A stretch of DNA of 64,000 nucleotides from Marinobacter salinus. GTDB taxonomy: Bacteria; Pseudomonadota; Gammaproteobacteria; Pseudomonadales; Oleiphilaceae. Positions 17,531 through 26,243 of this stretch are shown here, one piece after another. Position numbers and translations under genes: made by a program. Below the pieces are notes generated by a model that was given only the letters and a program-made list of their open reading frames with translations, searched no databases and was not told the origin of the DNA. The stretch lies in contig NZ_CP017715.1 in NCBI RefSeq assembly GCF_001854125.1, positions 3,782,001 to 3,846,000 on the forward strand, written 5' to 3'. Each line of letters starts with the position of its first letter. Position 1 is the stretch's first letter.

Positions 17531-19123
17531 ATGCCCTACGCACAAGACGTTGACCAGATTGCTTCCATCCTGAAGCAGAATCCGACCTGGAATGCCATCA
17601 ACCCGAAGCACGCCGCTCGCATGCGCGCCCAGAACAAGTTCAAGACTGGTCTGGACATCGCCAAGTACACCGCCAAGATCATGCGCGAAGACATGGCGAA
17701 CTACGACAACGACACTTCCCAGTACACGCAGTCCCTGGGTTGCTGGCACGGATTTATCGGCCAACAGAAGATGCTGTCCATCAAGAAGCACTTCGGCACT
17801 ACCAAGCGCCGCTACCTGTACCTGTCTGGCTGGATGGTTGCCGCCCTGCGTTCCGAGTTTGGCCCGCTGCCTGACCAGTCCATGCACGAGAAGACGGCTG
17901 TATCCGGTCTGATCGAAGAGCTGTACACCTTCCTGCGCCAGGCGGATGCCTGGGAACTGAACCACCTGTTCCGTGCCCTGGAAGAAGCCGAGAACGCTGG
18001 CGACAACGCCAAGGCTGAAGAGCTGATCAAGCAGATCGACAACCACGAGACTCACATAGTGCCGATCATTGCCGACATCGACGCCGGTTTTGGTAACGCT
18101 GAAGCGACCTACCTGCTGGCCAAGAAGATGATCGAAGCCGGTGCCTGCTGCATCCAGATCGAAAACCAGGTGTCTGATGAGAAGCAGTGTGGTCACCAGG
18201 ATGGCAAGGTTACCGTGCCGCACGCTGACTTCCTGTCCAAGATCAATGCCGTTCGTCTGGCGTTCCTGGAACTGGGTGTTGATGACGGGGTTATCGTGGC
18301 CCGTACCGACTCCCTGGGCGCAGGCCTGACCCAGAAAATCGCCGTCACCGACGAGCCGGGCGATCTGGGCGACCAGTACAATAGCTTCATCGATGGTGAA
18401 GTTATCGAGAAGGCTGAAGACATTAACAACGGCGACGTTGTGATCAAGCAGAACGGTCAGCTGGTTCGTCCGAAGCGCCTGGCCTCTGGCCTGTTCCAGT
18501 TCAAACCGGGCACTGGTGAAGACCGTGTTATCCTGGACTGTATCACTAGCCTGCAGAACGGTGCAGACCTGCTGTGGATCGAAACCGAGAAGCCCCACGT
18601 TGGCCAGATCGCTGCCATGGTTAACCGCATCAAGGAAGTGGTTCCCGACGCCAAGCTGGTCTACAACAACAGCCCGTCCTTCAACTGGACTCTGAACTTC
18701 CGTCAGCAGGTATTCGACGCATGGAAGGAAGAAGGCAAGGACGTATCTGCGTACGATCGCGCCAAGCTGATGAGCGAAGAGTACGACAACACCGAGCTGG
18801 GTCAGCTGGCTGACGAGTGGTGCCGTAACTTCCAGCGTGATGGTTCACGCGAAGCCGGGATCTTCCACCACCTGATCACCCTGCCGACCTACCACACCGC
18901 GGCTCTGTCTACCGACAACCTGGCCAAAGGCTACTTCGGTGACGAAGGCATGCTGGCCTACGTTGCCGGTGTTCAGCGCAAGGAAATCCGTCAGGGTATC
19001 GCCACCGTTAAGCACCAGGATATGGCTGGTTCCAACATCGGTGACGACCACAAGGAATTCTTCGCTGGTGAAGCCGCGCTGAAGGCCGGTGGTAAAGACA
19101 ACACCATGAACCAGTTCGGTTAA
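17531..19123 (+). CDS. aceA: Isocitrate lyase
   Basis: 530 residues, the long Pseudomonas-type form. It splits isocitrate into glyoxylate and succinate in the glyoxylate shunt, allowing growth on acetate and fatty acids. Catalytic segment KQCGH lies near residue 220 (SDEKQCGHQDGKVTVPH), with VARTDSLGAG and LLWIETEKPHV farther on. AAAGGA precedes the ATG. Codon use is strongly biased (CTG, AAG, GGT), as expected for a highly expressed enzyme. The 200 bases upstream are AT-rich (an A/T repeat near 17380-17411) and hold the promoter; no named operator was recognised. Two hairpins end the transcript. Confidence 0.95.
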   Translation: MPYAQDVDQIASILKQNPTWNAINPKHAARMRAQNKFKTGLDIAKYTAKIMREDMANYDNDTSQYTQSLGCWHGFIGQQKMLSIKKHFGTTKRRYLYLSGWMVAALRSEFGPLPDQSMHEKTAVSGLIEELYTFLRQADAWELNHLFRALEEAENAGDNAKAEELIKQIDNHETHIVPIIADIDAGFGNAEATYLLAKKMIEAGACCIQIENQVSDEKQCGHQDGKVTVPHADFLSKINAVRLAFLELGVDDGVIVARTDSLGAGLTQKIAVTDEPGDLGDQYNSFIDGEVIEKAEDINNGDVVIKQNGQLVRPKRLASGLFQFKPGTGEDRVILDCITSLQNGADLLWIETEKPHVGQIAAMVNRIKEVVPDAKLVYNNSPSFNWTLNFRQQVFDAWKEEGKDVSAYDRAKLMSEEYDNTELGQLADEWCRNFQRDGSREAGIFHHLITLPTYHTAALSTDNLAKGYFGDEGMLAYVAGVQRKEIRQGIATVKHQDMAGSNIGDDHKEFFAGEAALKAGGKDNTMNQFG

Positions 19124-19201: not shown

Positions 19202-19397
19202 ATGGGCTGGGATTTTTAACACTTTCTTTTCTGCGCATCTGAATGATTTTTAAAACAAAAGGCAAATGGACACCAAAAGCCACGGTTTTCCCTGTTTCAG
19301 CTTTGAAACAGTTAGCCAAGTACGGGTGGGGCCCAAATTGCGGGACTAAATGTAAATAGACAATAAAAACAACCATCTGCAGTTTTTCTTTGAGATC

Positions 19398-19413
19398 TGG
19401 CACGGGAATCGCT
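19398..19413 (+). promoter_or_regulatory. Candidate sigma-54 promoter for the SDN-repeat operon
   Basis: TGGCACGGGAATCGCT matches the sigma-54 consensus TGGCACG-N4-TTGCW at all but one position, with GG and GC ten bases apart as required. The transcript would start near 19424, about 88 bases before the ATG at 19512. Confidence 0.72.
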
Positions 19414-19423
19414 CTGGTAATAG

Positions 19424-19511
19424 CCGTGGGCCTGAATCACGGATGTACCCGAAGGCTAGCGGGTCTGGGCAGGCTCCCTGATAAGCCAACAACCTCAAAG
19501 GAATTGACGTT
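19424..19511 (+). other. Structured 5' leader of the SDN-repeat gene
   Basis: Three short hairpins follow one another: CCGTG-N9-CACGG, ACCCG-N8-CGGGT and GGCT-N8-AGCC. The segment AAGGCTAGCGGGTCT ... GATAAGCC faintly recalls the 3' half of a c-di-GMP-I riboswitch, but the conserved 5' half is absent. ACGGAT near the first stem and AAAGGAAT at the ribosome binding site match the CsrA/RsmA core. The rest of the 388-base gap (19202-19397) shows no gene. Confidence 0.4.
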
Positions 19512-20459
19512 ATGAACACCAAAAGAAGCATGCTAGCGATTGCTATCGCCGTGGGCCTGGGTATCTCAGGAGCGGCATTGGCAGAGGACGACCAGGGGGG
19601 AGATGGAAGCCCGAACACTAATGCGGATAACACATCGACCGCCAATAACAATTCTGGAAATGATAATTCCACCAACACTGACAGCTCGGACAACAGCGCC
19701 AATTTGAACGACGCGTTCAAGATTGCTGACAGTGGCAATGACATGTCCGACAACTCTGACAATTCGGACAACTCCGATAATTCGGATAACTCCGACAGCT
19801 CGGACAACAGCACCAGCCTGAACGATGCCTTCAAGATTGCCGACAGCGGCAATACTGATGCATCGGACAACTCCGATAACTCTGACAATTCAGACAACTC
19901 GGACAACTCGGACAACTCGGACAACTCGGACAACTCCGACAATTCCGATAACAGCACCAGTGTGAATGACTCGTTCAAGATTGCTGATAGCGGTAACGAT
20001 AACTCCGATAATTCGGACAACTCCGATAACTCCGACAATTCGGACAATTCGGACAACTCCGATAATTCGGACAACTCGAACAACAGCACTAACGATTCAT
20101 TCAACACAGCAGATAGCGGCAACAGTGACAGTTCAAACAACTCCACTAATGCTGCTGGTTCCTATAACACCGATAACAGCGACAACTCAGACAGCAGCAC
20201 GACTGAGCTGAACGTGTCGCTGGAGGTGTTCATGAACGATGCCGAGCTCGACGGCACTGTCAGTGGAACCAACGTGACCTATGGAGACGCTATTGGTGGC
20301 GGCTCTTACACAGAGGCTCGTGCCGGCAACGAGATTTCTGGAGGCTCGGCCAACTTCACCGGTGTGGGTGCGTTTGCCCAGAACGCCGGCGTAGGCAGCG
20401 TGACCCAAGCCAATGTGAGCGTCATGTCCAACCTGTCCACAGGTGGTGGCAGCAACTGA
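19512..20459 (+). CDS. Exported Ser-Asp-Asn repeat protein, candidate fibre or matrix component
   Basis: 315 residues. A Sec signal peptide ends near Ala24. Residues 79-99, 118-147 and 165-188 are tandem SDN triplets (about 6, 10 and 8 units). Between them a module recurs four times: SANLNDAFKIADSGN, STSLNDAFKIADSGN, STSVNDSFKIADSGN and STNDSFNTADSGN. The C-terminal 85 residues are different: LNVSLEVFMNDAEL, then FTGVGAFAQNAGVGSVTQAN, a Gln/Asn-spaced pattern like that of curli or Fap-type amyloid subunits. The protein is very acidic and has no Cys. First gene of a four-gene unit with a C39 peptidase. A secreted amyloid-like fibre or calcium-binding matrix protein is my inference; the family is not recognised. 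Confidence 0.75.
   Translation: MNTKRSMLAIAIAVGLGISGAALAEDDQGGDGSPNTNADNTSTANNNSGNDNSTNTDSSDNSANLNDAFKIADSGNDMSDNSDNSDNSDNSDNSDSSDNSTSLNDAFKIADSGNTDASDNSDNSDNSDNSDNSDNSDNSDNSDNSDNSTSVNDSFKIADSGNDNSDNSDNSDNSDNSDNSDNSDNSDNSNNSTNDSFNTADSGNSDSSNNSTNAAGSYNTDNSDNSDSSTTELNVSLEVFMNDAELDGTVSGTNVTYGDAIGGGSYTEARAGNEISGGSANFTGVGAFAQNAGVGSVTQANVSVMSNLSTGGGSN
19746..20075 (+). repeat. Three tandem SDN-codon tracts
   Basis: Nine-base units coding Ser-Asp-Asn: tract A 19746-19808, tract B 19863-19952, tract C 20004-20075. Synonymous codons are mixed (TCC/TCG/TCT/TCA, GAC/GAT, AAC/AAT), so the DNA repeat is imperfect while the protein repeat is exact. Nine-base steps keep frame, so slippage would change length without breaking the gene. 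Confidence 0.92.
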
Positions 20460-20467
20460 GCGAGGCC

Positions 20468-20494
20468 GGCCGCACCCTGAACCCGGGTGCGGCC
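20468..20494 (+). other. Ten-base-pair intercistronic hairpin
   Basis: GGCCGCACCC, seven bases, GGGTGCGGCC, nine bases after the SDN-protein stop and 24 bases before the next start. There is no T-run, so it is probably an mRNA-stabilising or processing element that raises the first gene's output above the later ones, as expected for a structural subunit. Confidence 0.65.
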
Positions 20495-20517
20495 CGGCTT
20501 CTGCCGGGAGACGTGTC

Positions 20518-20868
20518 ATGGGTAACGTGATCAGAGGGATTCTGGGTGCCGCATGTTTATGTGCTGTCTTGGGACAATCTGGCGTAGCCGCTGCCGAAGA
20601 GTGGATGGATTTACCCCCGATGAGTACGGATCAGCTGGAAGGTGCCAGTGGCCGTCAGGGAATTCCGCTGCAATGGCAGCTCAATGAGAATCAGCAAAGT
20701 GCAATGGTCACGGGGAACGTGTTGTCAGGACCGTCCATGACCGGAGATAACCTGATCTCAGATCACGCATTCGAGAACATGAGTGGTATTGCTACGGTGA
20801 TTCAGAACACCGGTAACCAGGTGGTGATTCAGGACAGCACCCAGGTAAACATCCTCATTAATCGTTGA
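20518..20868 (+). CDS. Small exported protein with leader-like motif, operon partner of the C39 peptidase
   Basis: 116 residues from the ATG at 20518, eight bases after GGGAG; the longer frame upstream runs through a hairpin and is rejected. Signal peptide ends near VAAAEE. Soon after comes PPMSTDQLEGASGRQG, which resembles the L-S-x-x-E-L-x-x-x-x-G-[GR] recognition motif of C39 peptidases in weak form. The C-terminus, IATVIQNTGNQVVIQDSTQV then NILINR, shares a Gln/Asn pattern with the last protein of the unit. No named family. Possibly a minor fibre subunit or nucleator (inferred). Confidence 0.72.
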   Translation: MGNVIRGILGAACLCAVLGQSGVAAAEEWMDLPPMSTDQLEGASGRQGIPLQWQLNENQQSAMVTGNVLSGPSMTGDNLISDHAFENMSGIATVIQNTGNQVVIQDSTQVNILINR

Positions 20869-20881
20869 AAGGAGGTGGGCC

Positions 20882-21574
20882 ATGGCAAAGCAGACACTTG
20901 CGGCGTTCGGTGCATGTGCTGTCATGTTGTGGTCTGCCGCATTTGCCGGAACCGTCATGGTACCTGGACTGGGTGGCGGGCTTCAGCTGGATGTCCGCAG
21001 TTTCAAGGAACAGCGTTTCAGTTCCGTGATGCGGCAGCAATATGATTTCAGCTGCGGTTCGGCGGCGCTTGCCTCGTTGCTTTCGTACCATTACGGGTAT
21101 GAAGTGACCGAGCAGGAAGTGTTTTCCGGAATGTATGCGCTCTCGGATCCGGAGAAGGTTCGGCGGGAGGGGTTTTCCATGCTGGATATGAAGCGGTTTC
21201 TGGAATCGGAGGGTTTTCGGGCCGATGGTTTTCGTATGCCGCTGGCCGGCCTGAGGGAAAAGGTGCGGTTGCCGGTTATTGTTCTTGTGAACATAGACGG
21301 GTTTCGTCATTTCGTGATTATCAAGGGAATCAGCGAGACCGAAGTGTTCGTTGGTGACCCGGCGCGGGGCCTGAAGGTCTATTCCAGAACTCAGTTCGAG
21401 GACTACTGGGACGGTGCCGCGTTCGTTATTCGCAGCCATCTCGCCCAGGGGAGGGAGACCTTCCTGGTTGAGGGGGACTGGCCACAGCTTGCCCGTGCGC
21501 CCTTATTTGAGGGCCAGAAGGGGCCGTCTCTTGGCCACACCCTGCCATATTGGCCATCTTCGAGGGAGTGGTAG
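20882..21574 (+). CDS. Periplasmic C39-family cysteine peptidase (FapD-like)
   Basis: 230 residues. AAGGAGG precedes the ATG. A signal peptide (residues 1-22, SAAFA then GTVMV) exports it. The C39 catalytic pattern is complete: QQYDFSCGSAALASLLSYH with Cys58 and oxyanion Gln52/53, FRHFVIIKGI with His143, and FVGDPARG with Asp159. Unlike bacteriocin exporters it has no ABC transporter domains. Free-standing exported C39 peptidases are typical of Fap amyloid loci (FapD) and of a few other secretion loci. It lies between two small exported proteins that carry leader-like motifs, its likely substrates. Confidence 0.85.
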   Translation: MAKQTLAAFGACAVMLWSAAFAGTVMVPGLGGGLQLDVRSFKEQRFSSVMRQQYDFSCGSAALASLLSYHYGYEVTEQEVFSGMYALSDPEKVRREGFSMLDMKRFLESEGFRADGFRMPLAGLREKVRLPVIVLVNIDGFRHFVIIKGISETEVFVGDPARGLKVYSRTQFEDYWDGAAFVIRSHLAQGRETFLVEGDWPQLARAPLFEGQKGPSLGHTLPYWPSSREW

Positions 21575-21578
21575 TGTG

Positions 21579-22070
21579 ATGATCAACCGACAATCATATT
21601 TGGCTGCGATTATGTCCCTTGCGCTCGGTTGTGTCGTGACGACAGCCAATGCCGATGGCATATTTCCGGAGCAGGCGCTGACGAATGACGAGCTGGCATC
21701 TCTGAGGGGAGGCTTTATGCTCGATAATCTGGAGATATCCATTGGTCTGGAGCAGGTCGTTTCTGTGAATGGTGAAACTCTGGCGATCAACCGTCTGACT
21801 ATTCCCAATCTGAATCAAATGGTGAGTGGGCAGGCTATTCCGCACCAGATGGAAACAGTTCTCGGCATTATCAGCCCCGGCAACAGTGGCCAGGCCCTTA
21901 TTTCAGCGACAGCGGGCGACAGCGGGTGGATGACGCTGATCCAGAATAACCTGGATAGCACGGTTATCCAGAATGCCCGGCAACTGAATATTGAACTGAA
22001 TAATCTGGGCTCCGGGTATCGTCTTCCCGACGTTATGAGGGAGCCTGTTCTCCAATTCCTCGGTCAATAG
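21579..22070 (+). CDS. Exported protein with double-glycine-type motif, likely C39 substrate
   Basis: 163 residues from the ATG at 21579 (a GTG at 21576 is possible; GGGAG lies upstream). The Sec signal peptide ends near TANADG. Residues 34-45 read LTNDELASLRGG, a textbook match to the double-glycine leader cleaved by C39 peptidases, yet placed after a Sec signal. Further on, WMTLIQNNLDSTVIQNARQL then NIELNN repeats the Gln/Asn pattern seen in the second gene. It starts four bases after the peptidase stop. Position and pattern recall FapE/FapB-type accessory subunits, but I cannot assign one. Confidence 0.75.
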   Translation: MINRQSYLAAIMSLALGCVVTTANADGIFPEQALTNDELASLRGGFMLDNLEISIGLEQVVSVNGETLAINRLTIPNLNQMVSGQAIPHQMETVLGIISPGNSGQALISATAGDSGWMTLIQNNLDSTVIQNARQLNIELNNLGSGYRLPDVMREPVLQFLGQ

Positions 22071-22086
22071 CTACATCGGCAGTGTT

Positions 22087-23148
22087 TCACAGGCTGATTG
22101 GCAGTTTCAGCGTGATCTCACTATTTGGCGCATTTTCGGTTACGCCGATACTGACAGTCAGGCTCAGGGTTGTGCTGGATGAAATTTTCTGAGAAAGACC
22201 GAACGACAGCGAACCGATCTGAATGCTGTCAAAGGTTGCGCCAAACAGATCAATATCACGCTCGTAGGTTGTCTTGCGGATGATCGAGTGATCATAGCCA
22301 AGACTGAACGACGTCCGTTCATTAAACGCGAACCCCATGCCAAACCCATAGCGAATCACATCCCCTGGGTTCACCGTAAGGCCATTCTCGTATCCTTTAT
22401 CGTCTTTCAGAGTGTAAACATAACTGAGGCTGCCATAGAGCACGGCCGGGTCCGACGGGTAGATGAATGAGAACCCTGGCTCAAATGACCAGAATCCGGA
22501 GCCTGTAGGGCGCTCTTCCAGTTCAATTCCGATTGGATTGCCTCCGCTGTCCTCAATAATCTTTTGATCAACATCGTATGGGCTGTCTCCCGTGGGCGTT
22601 TTGACCCGAACGACGCCAATGATGTAAGGCCAGCCATCCAGGCCGTCATTAAGCTGGTAGCGCACCGAGAGCTCAACGTCTCCAAGGCCCTCGCCTGAGG
22701 ATTCACGCAGCGTATCCACCGGAGTTCCCTCGAATGCTTCCCGTTCCCGAAGGTCTTCCTGGATGCTCAGGTAGGGCACTCGCACTGCTGCCTCAAACCG
22801 GCTGGTGAAACCGTATTTGAGCGACAGCGCTCCGACGAAAATATCCCGCTGGATTTCCGAGATATTGATCAGCCCCACCAGCAACGCGGGAATGACGGTA
22901 TAGCCCTCCACCGCGACCTGAGTGGCGTTACTGTGGGCATGGGAGAATGACGGTTCGATAGTGAAACGACCGGGGCGAGTGACAATGCCCCGATCCGATG
23001 TGATTGAAGCAATATCCGTTGCCTGGTCTTTTTGCTGTTCCGTGCGTGACGCTGATTCCCCAAAGTCATCATATTCAGGCTTCGCAACGCCGGTTGCGGA
23101 AAGCAGGCATGCGCTCATGGTGATCAGCAAACAGGTGCGTGCTCTCAT
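22087..23148 (-). CDS. Outer-membrane beta-barrel protein, FapF/phenol-degradation MetA-like
   Basis: 353 residues from the ATG at 23148, which overlaps the stop of the regulator gene (ATGA); the longer frame is the regulator's coding region in another phase. Signal peptide ends near ATGVA. After a short polar linker comes an outer-membrane barrel: RPGRFTIEPSFSHAHSN, GALSLKYGFTSRFEAAVRVPYL, EGLGDVELSVRYQLNDG, VRVKTPTGDSPYDVD. This order matches the FapF transporter family, which secretes amyloid subunits in Pseudomonas. The N-terminal plug helix region is shorter than in FapF. Convergent with the C39 operon, 16 bases between stops. Confidence 0.75.
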   Translation of the reverse strand: MRARTCLLITMSACLLSATGVAKPEYDDFGESASRTEQQKDQATDIASITSDRGIVTRPGRFTIEPSFSHAHSNATQVAVEGYTVIPALLVGLINISEIQRDIFVGALSLKYGFTSRFEAAVRVPYLSIQEDLREREAFEGTPVDTLRESSGEGLGDVELSVRYQLNDGLDGWPYIIGVVRVKTPTGDSPYDVDQKIIEDSGGNPIGIELEERPTGSGFWSFEPGFSFIYPSDPAVLYGSLSYVYTLKDDKGYENGLTVNPGDVIRYGFGMGFAFNERTSFSLGYDHSIIRKTTYERDIDLFGATFDSIQIGSLSFGLSQKISSSTTLSLTVSIGVTENAPNSEITLKLPISL

Positions 23149-24536
23149 GACAGGTCCCCCTTTCGGTAATTCTCTGGTTGGGTGTGGCGGTTGTGCGCGG
23201 CTGTGTTGTACTTGTCCAGCAGCCGGTAAAATGACACACGGGAAATTTTCAGGATTTTCGCGGCCTTGGAAACGTTGTGGTCTGCCAACTTGAGACTGCA
23301 TGAGAGCGCCTGCCGCTCTGCCCGAGCGCGGAACTCTTCAAGACTGAGGTTGGAGGGTGCGCCGCTGTCCAGGAAAGCCTCGGCAAGCCCCAGGTCGGAA
23401 GGCTCAATGACCGGGCGCTCGCTGAGCAGTAAACCCTGGCGCAACCGATTCTGAAACTCTCTGAAATTGCCGGGCCATGAATGGTTAACCAGACTGCGGA
23501 TCGCCTCGTTGCTCAGGTGTTTTTGCTCTGACCCTTGTTGCAGCAAGTCGAGCAAAGAACTGGCAAGCGTCGGTATGTCCTCAAACCGGCTTTTTAAAAC
23601 AGGAAGTCTTACCTCAAGACCGCCAAGCCGGTAGTAAACATCGGCCCGAAACTGGCCAGTCGAAATCAGGTCCGGCAAAGGGCGGCAGGTGGTTGTAATT
23701 ATCCGGCAATCGACGGCTATGGAGCTGCTGCCACCGATCCTTTCAATTTGCCCTTCCTGGAGAAAACGCAGGATGGCGGATTGCTGCTCAAGGTGCAGCT
23801 CGTCGATGCCAGACAGTACCAAAGAGCCTCCGTTCGCCTGCTCAAGTCGCCCCTGGCGCGCATTGAGAGCGTGGGTAAAGGCGCCTTTTTCATAGCCGAA
23901 CAGCTCGCTCTGGGTGAGAGCATCGGGCAGGGCAGCGCAATTGATGGTAATCAGGGGACCGGACGCGCGGGAGGAGTGGGCATGAATGAAGCGGGCAGCC
24001 GCCTCTTTGCCGGTGCCGCTTTCTCCGGTGATCAGGACCGGTTCCATCGTTGTCGAGAAACGACGGAGCAGACTGCGGGTATGGCGAATGGGTTCGGAGT
24101 CTCCTTCCAGTACCAAGGCCTGGTAGTCATCTCTTGTCAGTTTGTGCGCGGGCCCCTGGATGCTCGCCATGCCCCAAAGATGGCCCAGAACCGTATTGAT
24201 CCGCTCGTAATCTACGGGCAAGGTATGGAAATCTGAACAGTAACTGGTGATGACTTGGGCCGTGCGTGTTCCTGTGATGGGGCGGTGGGGGACGATGCCG
24301 ACCCAGTAAACCAGACTGAGTGCCTCGCACCAGTGTTCCAGTCCCGGCAGATCCCCGTCCGGAAGGCCGGAGAGATCCAGCACCCCGACTTTAGCGTTAT
24401 CCAGGGCTGAAACAAGCGTGGGTACGGGGTCGTCAAGGTTAAAACGGATCAGATCCCAATTTGCCTCCAGTTCCTTCGTCAAAGAGGCATTGCTGTTTGC
24501 CGCTGACAACCAAACAAGCGGTCTCTTTTCCTGCAT
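23145..24536 (-). CDS. AAA+ enhancer-binding-type regulator with degraded ATPase motifs (VpsR-like)
   Basis: 463 residues: an N-terminal receiver-like domain without clear phosphorylation Asp pocket (1-125), an AAA+ domain (150-385), and a Fis-type helix-turn-helix (about 415-455). Walker A is intact (GESGTGKE, 171-178). The sigma-54 contact loop GAFTGA reads GAFTHA (218-223). The Walker B Asp-Glu is replaced by Ser242-Gly243 (LVLSGIDEL). It may therefore not hydrolyse ATP or open a sigma-54 promoter in the usual way; VpsR of Vibrio is a known regulator of this degenerate kind. GGAGG precedes the start. It is coupled to the outer-membrane gene and is the likely controller of the locus. Confidence 0.85.
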   Translation of the reverse strand: MQEKRPLVWLSAANSNASLTKELEANWDLIRFNLDDPVPTLVSALDNAKVGVLDLSGLPDGDLPGLEHWCEALSLVYWVGIVPHRPITGTRTAQVITSYCSDFHTLPVDYERINTVLGHLWGMASIQGPAHKLTRDDYQALVLEGDSEPIRHTRSLLRRFSTTMEPVLITGESGTGKEAAARFIHAHSSRASGPLITINCAALPDALTQSELFGYEKGAFTHALNARQGRLEQANGGSLVLSGIDELHLEQQSAILRFLQEGQIERIGGSSSIAVDCRIITTTCRPLPDLISTGQFRADVYYRLGGLEVRLPVLKSRFEDIPTLASSLLDLLQQGSEQKHLSNEAIRSLVNHSWPGNFREFQNRLRQGLLLSERPVIEPSDLGLAEAFLDSGAPSNLSLEEFRARAERQALSCSLKLADHNVSKAAKILKISRVSFYRLLDKYNTAAHNRHTQPENYRKGDLS

Positions 24537-24891
24537 GGCAAACCTCCATAAGAGTGGTGCCTCGGGAATCGGACTGCTAGTCGTTCAGGATTGCGTTAGT
24601 TAACCGGTACGGCGGAAAGCTCCGGCCACTGCCCTGTGACCTGCCACTCTGCCGCAGGGGCAGAGGTGGATGATGCGCTGTTTTGACTTCAGGCATTCAG
24701 AATGCATGCCAGGAGCTATATAAGTACGGCTTTCAGGTGGTTGCGAAATCCAGATGCGGCGCACTGCGTAAAACTGTAAAGCCGGCCGACATCTGACGGC
24801 GATTGTGAACCTCTGTACCCGTGGCGGGTTCTGTTATGCTGGAAAAAAATCATGGAATGTTACGAGTCGCTTTATGGGTGAGAGGAAGGTC
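24537..24891. other. Divergent gene-free gap
   Basis: 355 bases between the regulator and the EgtB-type gene. It should carry both promoters. I see no ORF, RNA gene or repeat in it. A sigma-70-like TATGCT lies near 24835. Confidence 0.5.
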
Positions 24892-26243
24892 ATGACGGAC
24901 GAACAGTCAGTAAGGGAGGATTTGCTGGCGGAACTTGAACATACCCGCCAACGCACCCGTCAACTGATCACGTCGCTTTCAGAGGCGCAACTGGACGTGC
25001 CCTATCATCCCGGCGTGAACCCGCCACTTTGGGAGATGGGACACGCAGCGTTCTTCTATGAAGTGTTTGTCTTTAATCTCCTGGACGGCGCGCCGAGCTT
25101 TGATCCGGCCATGGACGACCTCTGGGACTCGTTCCACATTGAACACCGGGACCGCTGGAATCGTGACCTGTTTCCCGGACGGGTGGAGACGCTCGATTAT
25201 TTCGACACGATCTATGACCGGGTGGCAGAGCGTATCCGTGTGCAGCCTCTGACAGATCAGGCCTTGTATCTTTATCGCTATGCGATCTTCCACCAGAACA
25301 TGCACATTGAATCGTTGATCTGGTGCCGTCAGACGGTCGGCTATGCTGCGCCTCCGGGGATGACCCGTGAGCGCTCCTCACCGGGAACACCGGCTTCCGG
25401 CGATACGGTTATCCCCGCTGGCCGTTGGTTGATTGGCATGCCCGGTGAGTCAGAATCCTTCGCAACCAAGGATTTCGCCTTTGACAACGAGAAGCCGGGA
25501 TTCGAGGTGGATTTGGAGTCATTCGCGATTTCCCGTCAACTGGTAACGAACAGGGAGTATCTGGCGTTTGTCGATGACGGAGGTTATCGCAGACCAGAAC
25601 TCTGGTCGTTCGGGGGCGGAAGTGGCTGGAGACAGAAGTGGACATGGCTCTGGTACATGGCTGCTCGGAACCCCTCATGAGGACACCGGCACACCCGATC
25701 TACTGGCGCTGGCACGAAGGGCGCTGGCAAGAGCGTTTATTTGATCAGTGGCAACGGCTTAATCCCGATGTGCCGGTCACTCATGTCAGTTACTGGGAAG
25801 CCGAGGCTTACTGCAACTGGGCCGGAAGGAGGCTGCCGACCGAATTTGAATGGGAAGTGGCCGCTCTGGGCAATCGCCCGGGCAAGGCGTGCCGCCGATA
25901 TCCCTGGGGAAACGAGCGTCCTGACGCGTCCCTGGCGGATATGGACGGCCAGCATATGGCGCAAAATCCGGTGTTCGATTATCCGGAGGCAGACAGTCCG
26001 TTCGGATGTCGGCAGATGATCGGCGCCGTATGGGAATGGACCAGCAGCCAGTTTTTCCCCTATGACGGGTTCAGAATCGACATGTACCCCTTCATGTCGA
26101 CTCTTCAGTTCGGCGATCACAAGGTATCCCGTGGTGGCAGCTGCGCGACATCTTCGTGTCTGATCCGCGGCACCTATCGCCAGGCTTACTTGCCTCAGCG
26201 AAACGATGTATTCACCGGTTTCCGGACTTGCGCACTGTCATAG
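24892..26243 (+). pseudogene. EgtB/SenA-type nonheme iron enzyme, interrupted by a frameshift
   Basis: Two open frames together encode one protein of about 450 residues. The first part (from ATG 24892, after GAGGAAGG) has a DinB-like domain with NPPLWEMGHAAFFYE and HQNMHIESLIW, the metal-binding His set. It stops at 25680. The second part continues in the frame shifted by one base: KWLETEVDM, then AHPIYWRW, and the FGE-sulfatase fold to SRGGSCATSSCLIRGTYR. The switch falls at the G5 run 25612-25616; one extra G would restore WSFGGRKWLETEVDM. The family joins Cys or a selenosugar to trimethylhistidine (EgtB, SenA). No egtD or senB lies nearby. Confidence 0.85.

Follow-up and report, generated by a model that had tools for sequence, protein, structure and literature searches.

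Here we describe a six-gene locus of Marinobacter salinus that probably constitutes a sigma-54-controlled secretion system for a surface fibre or matrix protein, forming a sister branch of the Fap system. The locus lies within a 64,000-nucleotide stretch of contig NZ_CP017715.1 (the window, to which all coordinates refer unless a contig or locus is named), which is part of a single-contig 4.12-Mb genome that is 99.9% complete. The case is built on the homologies of the proteins, the linkage of their genes, a leader and a C-terminal motif in the exported products, and a promoter, each of which is conserved among relatives. A preliminary description of this DNA had placed six genes here, including a convergent barrel gene coupled to an AAA+ regulator, and all six open reading frames (ORFs) are where it put them; its starting coordinate, 19398, is the first base of the sigma-54-type promoter. 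The SDN, S1, C39 and S2 genes share one strand, the barrel and activator genes are convergent to them, and the activator stop and barrel start overlap by 4 nt. A signal-peptide-like N terminus is evident by eye in five of the six proteins, the activator being the exception. The features are as follows.

19292..19311, no strand: palindrome CTGTTTCA-N4-TGAAACAG, putative activator binding site
19398..19413, forward: sigma-54-type promoter TGGCACGGGAATCGCT, 98 nt 5' of the SDN start codon
19512..20459, forward: SDN protein, 315 amino acids (aa), candidate fibre or matrix protein with a signal peptide, a low-complexity Ser/Asp/Asn body and a conserved C terminus
20352..20435, forward: SDN C-terminal motif NFTGVGAFAQNAGVGSVTQANVSVMSNL, residues 281 to 308 (hhalign, held-out profile)
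20518..20868, forward: S1, small exported protein, 116 aa, candidate nucleator with an SGRQG motif and the C terminus ATVIQNTGNQVVIQDSTQVNI
20882..21574, forward: C39 peptidase, free, periplasmic and FapD-like, 230 aa (PF03412, NCBIfam FapD)
21579..22070, forward: S2, small exported protein, 163 aa, with a FapE-like N-terminal region and a double-glycine leader
21678..21713, forward: S2 leader LTNDELASLRGG, residues 34 to 45; candidate site of C39 cleavage before Phe46
22087..23148, reverse: FapF-like outer-membrane barrel, 353 aa, with a plug-like helix and without the FapF coiled coil (PDB, AlphaFold2 [AF2], Foldseek)
23145..24536, reverse: sigma-54-type activator, 463 aa, with a VpsR-like N-terminal domain, an AAA+ domain and a Fis-type helix-turn-helix (HTH)

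A FapF-like barrel and a FapD-like peptidase

The barrel groups with FapF by both profile search and structure comparison. It matches solved FapF (PDB 5o67) over residues 37 to 351 (expect value [E], 1.4e-36), and a Foldseek search with an AF2 model built from 28 sequences (mean predicted local distance difference test score [pLDDT], 62.5) returns FapF chains at ranks 1 to 18, followed by COG4313 (4rl8). The model has a helix at residues 34 to 47 and then strands; this plug-like helix and that of the signal (2 to 20) are its only helices of at least 4 residues, and alignment with the FapF model begins at model position 100 of 420 and barrel residue 39 of 353. Longer N termini precede the barrel in some relatives outside the Marinobacter group, as judged by eye. 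Barrel residues D52, E65, K111, and K348 align with FapF E98, E111, R157, and K401 (numbering derived from the F103A mutation in 5o67 and read off the alignment); among the 28 sequences D52 and E65 are invariant, K111 is kept in 90% or more and K348 in the majority. The passages of PMC5557850 on mutant phenotypes report that FapF charge residues matter for secretion. It is highly unlikely that the barrel is instead a small-molecule channel of the Phenol_MetA_deg/COG4313 kind in a catabolic linkage: the Pfam match to Phenol_MetA_deg (E 1.7e-6) and the place of COG4313 as the next fold would suit such a channel, but FapF is much closer, and the constant partners of the barrel are exported proteins and a C39 peptidase.

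The peptidase matches Pfam PF03412 (E 5.1e-21) and groups with FapD (158.8 bits to the NCBIfam model, E 1.2e-46), and its catalytic Cys, His, and Asp motifs are present in 39 of 39 proteins. Both core proteins score far below the NCBIfam equivalog cut-offs, which are 330 for FapD and 700 for FapF (barrel, 156 bits). In an earlier survey, 69% of FapF and 96% of FapD model matches were set aside as members of larger families (PMC3792158, in part).

Conserved linkage and a separate branch

A scan of genome contigs with the barrel alone fetched 41 loci, and all six genes are matched, in the same convergent order, in 39 of them (38 Marinobacter and one Oleiphilaceae); because the five other genes accompany the barrel so regularly, their linkage is not due to chance. 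The exceptions are L041 (Methylococcaceae), with barrel and regulator only, and L042, with a barrel fragment and regulator; the 39 include one broken copy (L040) and one truncated at a contig end (L008). Outside the Marinobacter group there are 20 loci with the same barrel type, and S1, peptidase, S2, and barrel are found in 19 of these (all but L041), with the regulator inside the fetched stretch in 11 of the 19. Since these 19 loci were picked by peptidase (14) or barrel (five), S1 and S2 provide the real test of linkage. Profiles of S1 and S2 were trained on part of the outside-group loci. Among the loci kept out of training, the S1 profile finds a match in 8 of 8, with E values of about 1e-4 or lower, and the S2 profile in 7 of 7, at 2e-13 or lower. 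At 14 canonical fap loci the S1 profile gives two marginal matches (E 3e-3) and the S2 profile matches eight, five of which are ORFs listed as FapE. Within the genus, 72 of 124 genomes have S1 at an E value of 1e-10 or lower, one of them as the broken copy.

Broader scans recover a mixture of types. The FapF family model matches 58 of 293 genomes of the order, six above its cut-off, and at an E value of 1e-20 or lower the peptidase has matches in 39 of 369 genomes from the class, canonical FapD and the peptidases of Fil, an Acinetobacter-type "putative pilus system," included. At the level of the phylum there are peptidase matches in 37 of 398 genomes (E 1e-30 or better), again of mixed types and with three outside the class. 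Neighbourhoods were read for 33 loci picked from the FapF-model and class-wide peptidase scans and then for 12 more, and the loci with this channel and protease core span more than ten families. In midpoint-rooted trees of the barrel (49 rows) and the peptidase (50 rows), this branch is one group in both, with support of 97/98 for the barrel and 90/92 for the peptidase, the latter under the program's 95/80 mark. Canonical Fap groups apart (88/55 barrel, 99/94 peptidase), as does Fil (100/100 in both trees, with only two of four Fil barrels long enough to include). The preliminary description proposed a Fap-like branch and named as grounds against it a grouping of barrel and peptidase with unrelated families or a want of conserved linkage; neither protein groups with an unrelated family, and linkage is strong both within (39/41) and outside (19/20) the Marinobacter group.

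The locus shares with Fap a FapF-type barrel, a FapD-type periplasmic C39 peptidase, a leader protein that resembles FapE over a short N-terminal stretch, and Gln/Asn motifs in the exported subunits. It differs in having no FapA match and no triple-repeat FapB or FapC, in its Ser-Asp-Asn fibre body, in the opposite-strand placement of barrel and activator, in a barrel that lacks the coiled coil, in a leader ending in RGGF rather than the RG[K/R] of FapE, and in its separate tree groups. FapA is often absent from known fap operons. A divergent canonical fap operon, in which SDN would be FapC, S1 FapB, and S2 FapE, with fapF rearranged, would account for the FapD, FapF, and FapE-like parts, and passages of PMC3792158 record fapF apart from the operon in other genera. 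However, the scores lie far under the equivalog cut-offs (158.8 of 330; 156 of 700), Fap repeats are missing, the branch is separate in both trees, and genome G102 has fap-type genes (L077) as well as this system (L082); we therefore consider this explanation improbable and reject it. By NCBIfam the locus has two clear fap homologues (FapD and FapF) and one weak one (FapE), where PMC6173800 calls for at least four within 5 kb.

Two kinds of remnant were seen among the relatives. Beside a complete locus of this type, L080:11816-12423 holds what are probably leftovers of a fap operon, namely a short remnant of a barrel and a FapA-like gene. L040/L085 (Marinobacter changyiensis) and L042 (Marinobacter sp. 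F4218) are decayed copies of the locus described here, suggesting that the system is dispensable.

The S2 leader as a candidate cleavage site

S2 aligns with FapE at an hhalign probability of 95.2 (E 2.7e-8, score 58.7) over 32 columns only, with a null maximum of 21.2 from 100 column shuffles, the null used for every hhalign comparison here. The match of S2 to the NCBIfam FapE model is weak (E 0.037); a search of the whole M. salinus genome with that model found no match, and as control genomes likewise gave none this is uninformative. Among 39 S2 proteins (the window and 38 relatives, excluding the L040 fragment), RGGF is present in every one, behind a Sec-type signal-like stretch. The consensus of double-glycine C39 leaders is of the LSxxELxxIxGG type, and S2 fits it in register, with Leu-12 in 34, Ser-11 in 24, Glu-8 in 32, and Leu-7, Gly-2, and Gly-1 in all 39; position -4 is frequently not hydrophobic. 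A strict leader pattern is found in 35 of the 39 S2 proteins; none of the 548 other ORFs at these loci has it, and 25 of 1,950 shuffles do. With an S2-trained leader profile, S2 proteins of other lineages (n = 12) are matched or beaten by 0 to 9 of 373 other ORFs and FapE proteins (n = 9) by 2 to 45; these false-positive counts are overstated because the nine best-scoring controls include five S2- or FapE-like proteins from the same set of loci that had gone unlabelled (L130, L077, L142, L148, and L137), as their position and motif show. Two others of the nine are barrels (L134 and L137), and FapA and S1 score weakly.

The end of the S2 leader before Phe46 is thus a candidate C39 cleavage site, and as the leader sits behind a Sec-type signal, cleavage there would be periplasmic. 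At the aligned position FapE has RG[K/R] in 9 of 9 proteins, picked from the 14 canonical loci, and this is a candidate FapD cut site. Passages of PMC5557850 report complete N-terminal processing for FapE alone and a dependence of FapD on its Cys, and describe the FapD target as unclear; a 2025 review (PMC12822426) names the FapE N terminus and the periplasmic part of FapF as the presumed substrates of FapD, and its passages on FapD processing state no cut site. FapE as a FapD target has thus been proposed before; this locus contributes a candidate site that aligns with FapE, has the double-glycine form, is conserved, and can be tested. We note also that two barrels of relatives (L134:5187-6446 and L137:5212-6405) carry a leader-like ELAEQRGGK or DLDTQRGGA within their first 80 residues, which recalls the idea, raised in a passage of PMC5557850, that FapD possibly cuts FapF.

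S2 shares the register Leu-12, Ser-11, Glu-8, Leu-7, Gly-2, and Gly-1 with the leaders of ABC (ATP-binding cassette) transporter C39 systems, and a C39-processed bacteriocin-like system with S1 and S2 as its secreted peptides would explain that leader. It is a very improbable explanation, as the peptidase is free and exported instead of ABC-transporter-fused, the six genes include no ABC transporter or immunity gene, and their linkage to a FapF-type barrel and a repeat protein of roughly 250 to 400 aa is conserved.

A variable body with a conserved end

The SDN protein has 29 Asp-Asn-Ser triplets encoded by 13 different 9-mers, and the repeat is thus maintained at the protein level, not freshly copied DNA. 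It belongs to no Pfam family, has one weak low-complexity match in NCBIfam (E 0.021), and its sole PDB match, a Ser-rich repeat protein (E 2.8), was judged to be chance. The body is predicted by AF2 to be unstructured and differs even within the genus, consisting of SDN triplets, STNVADSGNDNSDN units, or TDTDTDNS units between two conserved ends; Asp, Asn, and Ser make up 47 to 79% of it in 37 Marinobacter-group proteins. Of 16 fibre proteins from outside the group (a set that omits L142 and L139, the fibre of the latter surfacing only in the C-terminal profile run), seven are Asp/Asn/Ser-rich (0.54 to 0.72), five are Gly-rich (0.29 to 0.36), two have four copies of the QN motif, and two are of neither type (L130 and L137). 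The L136 fibre protein has a DNS-rich tail, the rest being lost at a contig end. The four-copy proteins belong to L131 and L132, of one family (f72), in which the motif copies replace the low-complexity body; this is possibly the ancestral form.

When 412 protein ends are ranked by a profile made from Marinobacter-group fibre ends alone, the 11 held-out ends of other lineages all fall in the top 12, at E values from 4.6e-9 to 4.5e-3; the remaining one, initially counted as a control, is the end of a second fibre-like ORF of L134, and the next two are FapB ends (E 0.018 and 0.098). The fibre end aligns with the last FapB repeat over 38 C-terminal columns (probability 73.7, score 27.3, null maximum 15.8) and with the S1 C terminus (probability 80.8, score 31.8, null maximum 19.1), the latter probability being 6 with Marinobacter sequences only and reaching 80.8 once other lineages are included. 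The main product had been called unrelated to Fap. It does lack Fap repeats: no locus protein has a FapB or FapC family match in Pfam or NCBIfam, the triple repeats are missing, and hhalign finds no match to FapC repeats; the match of its end to FapB shows that "unrelated" goes too far.

S1 has the leader-like SGRQG motif in 39 of 39 proteins and aligns with S2 (probability 97.5), the SGRQG region falling on the S2 leader region. One S1 relative bears a UniRef name starting "Curlin associated repea." Identity of S1 with FapA was considered and rejected (probability 0.8, from four FapA sequences only).

The same secretion machine could instead release a non-amyloid product, a disordered acidic coat or brush anchored at the surface by the C-terminal motif. 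The Asp/Asn/Ser-rich composition, the predicted lack of structure, and the free variation of the body among lineages (DNS-rich, Gly-rich, or multi-motif) all suit such a coat, and we regard it as a serious though distinctly less probable account. Against it, the QN-type motif common to the fibre end and the S1 end resembles the last FapB repeat, and two relatives have four motif copies, as expected of an amyloid subunit.

In L018 and L092 (Marinobacter sp. ATCH36; G060) the SDN-S1-C39-S2 cassette is in tandem duplicate beside a single barrel. The S1, peptidase, and S2 copies look identical and the two SDN proteins differ, suggesting selection for a second product.

Regulation

The activator has VpsR-like (PF20161, E 1.9e-9), sigma-54 activation (PF00158, E 3e-55), and Fis-type HTH (PF02954, E 6.7e-6) domains. 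With a consensus and weights of our choosing, a promoter of the TGGCACGGGAATCGCT type reaches at least 19.5 of 22 in 35 of 36 upstream regions and in 6 of 1,080 block shuffles; L008, L009, L031, and L040, with start or upstream DNA missing or unsure, are excluded from the 36. The palindrome lies 84 to 87 nt upstream of the promoter and is found with up to four mismatches in 35 of the 36 regions and with up to two in 32, compared with 19 and 0, respectively, of 720 block shuffles. Only one perfect copy is present in the genome; the two further imperfect copies give no convincing regulon, and a reversed control pattern likewise gave two sites. On this pattern of conservation the activator likely binds the palindrome. 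The mean best score of sigma-54-like sites 5' of the activator gene is 17.1, and plain shuffling of the SDN upstream regions gives 15.7; such sites are not claimed. VpsR binds cyclic di-GMP (c-di-GMP), and as the activator is VpsR-like, it is a fair guess that the locus is under c-di-GMP control. Of the 14 canonical fap loci, 12 have a related sigma-54-type activator within the DNA fetched; passages of PMC8072697 offer nothing useful on Fap regulation.

Proposed mechanism and significance

We propose that the activator would bind the upstream palindrome and turn on SDN-S1-C39-S2, the products of which would cross the inner membrane via Sec. The periplasmic C39 peptidase would then remove a double-glycine-type leader from S2, and perhaps from S1, licensing export, and the FapF-like barrel would release the unfolded SDN protein. 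Outside the cell, the C-terminal QNxGxxxxxQ motif common to SDN and S1 may join subunits, with S1 as nucleator or anchor and the acidic Ser-Asp-Asn body as a hydrophilic extension.

Several observations weigh against this fibre-secretion reading. The barrel lacks the FapF coiled coil, and in E. coli FapF without it failed to secrete FapC (PMC5557850, in part); Val and Thr (V56/T57) also replace Phe at FapF F102/F103. Despite the sigma-54-type promoter, the window's activator has GAFTHA in place of the GAFTGA loop, and among 42 activators GAFTHA occurs in 27, GAFTSA in 6, GAFTNA in 3, and GAFTGA in 1, with no match in 5. AF2 yields no fold for the SDN body (mean pLDDT 41, uninformative). The QN pattern as we defined it matches only 9 of 17 fibre proteins, and four of the five Gly-rich relatives have a different end (e.g., AATNVAAHSNVNIGN). 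The fibre-end profile detects the fibre in 5 of 19 loci with default filters and in 13 of 19 with filters off, 10 of these being training members, and its probability against FapC repeats is 0.3. S1 passes the strict leader pattern in 0 of 39 proteins, 77 of 373 other ORFs equal or beat the window S1 by the S2-trained profile, and its C terminus matches the last FapB repeat at a modest probability (42.6; score 25.1, null maximum 16.6). Finally, S1 is missing from 52 of the 124 genomes of the genus.

Fap has been called evolutionarily "fixed" in synteny and in repeat number, which is almost invariably three (PMC12822426, in part). As a tentative generalization, held with a little less than even confidence, Fap, this branch, and perhaps Fil may share one rule: a free periplasmic C39 peptidase makes a second cut in a small Sec-exported protein, at L-x-x-x-E-[LM]-x-x-x-R-G-[G/K/R] before [F/Y], and that cut licenses export through a FapF-type barrel. 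The main exported protein would need just a short C-terminal motif, its body being exchangeable (Ser-Asp-Asn, Gly-rich, or motif repeats), so that this would be plug-in fibre secretion as opposed to a fixed operon. The same channel and protease core is naturally linked to very different repetitive proteins, and if the body is exchangeable the system is a candidate for the display of designed repetitive proteins. Because it dispenses with the coiled coil on which Pseudomonas FapF depends, the barrel is a simpler object for the study of plug gating.

The branch is widespread. It had been suggested to be undescribed, and this is supported with a qualification: PMC6173800 has already recorded co-localised fapD and fapF homologues away from canonical operons, in five further phyla, and the relevant passages of that paper say nothing of the genes that such loci contain, of an SDN-type product, or of the leader. 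A literature search combining the fap operon, Marinobacter, and amyloid found no paper and we found no earlier description, absence from print being weakly tested.

Other known systems and neighbouring genes

Fil (NCBIfam FilB, FilC, and FilD) likewise has a C39 peptidase adjoining a FapF-related barrel, and in L097 a neighbour has the leader-like motif MDDAALSGVTGQ, which scores weakly with the S2 profile (equalled or exceeded by 31 of 373 other ORFs). Fil differs in having a FadL-type FilD and a MalM-like protein and in its own tree group, and the proteins of our locus match it more weakly (peptidase to FilB, 116.5 bits, E 1.4e-33, cut-off 475; barrel to FilC, 55.6 bits, E 5.4e-15, cut-off 630); no FadL-type gene is among the six, and the set of FilB, FilC, and FilD is incomplete. 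The M. salinus genome has a second C39 and barrel locus, of the Fil type, at L044:6653-11214 (C1, near 818652-823213), with FilB, FilC, a FilD-like FadL protein, and a MalM/DUF4124 protein; no adjoining FilA-like gene was noticed. In curli, CsgA and CsgB are fibre and nucleator subunits with one common motif, and the two-subunit logic is alike by analogy only, as Pfam and NCBIfam give no CsgE, CsgF, CsgG, or curlin-repeat family match among the six proteins.

The gene 5' of the locus (17531-19123), which we take to be isocitrate-lyase-like, is followed by a terminator-like stretch, noted by eye. The next gene 3' begins at 24805 and is broken up into two ORFs that overlap and differ in frame (24805-26243), where L042 and L095 have a single ORF of ∼450 aa; the split reflects either a frameshift or a sequencing error.

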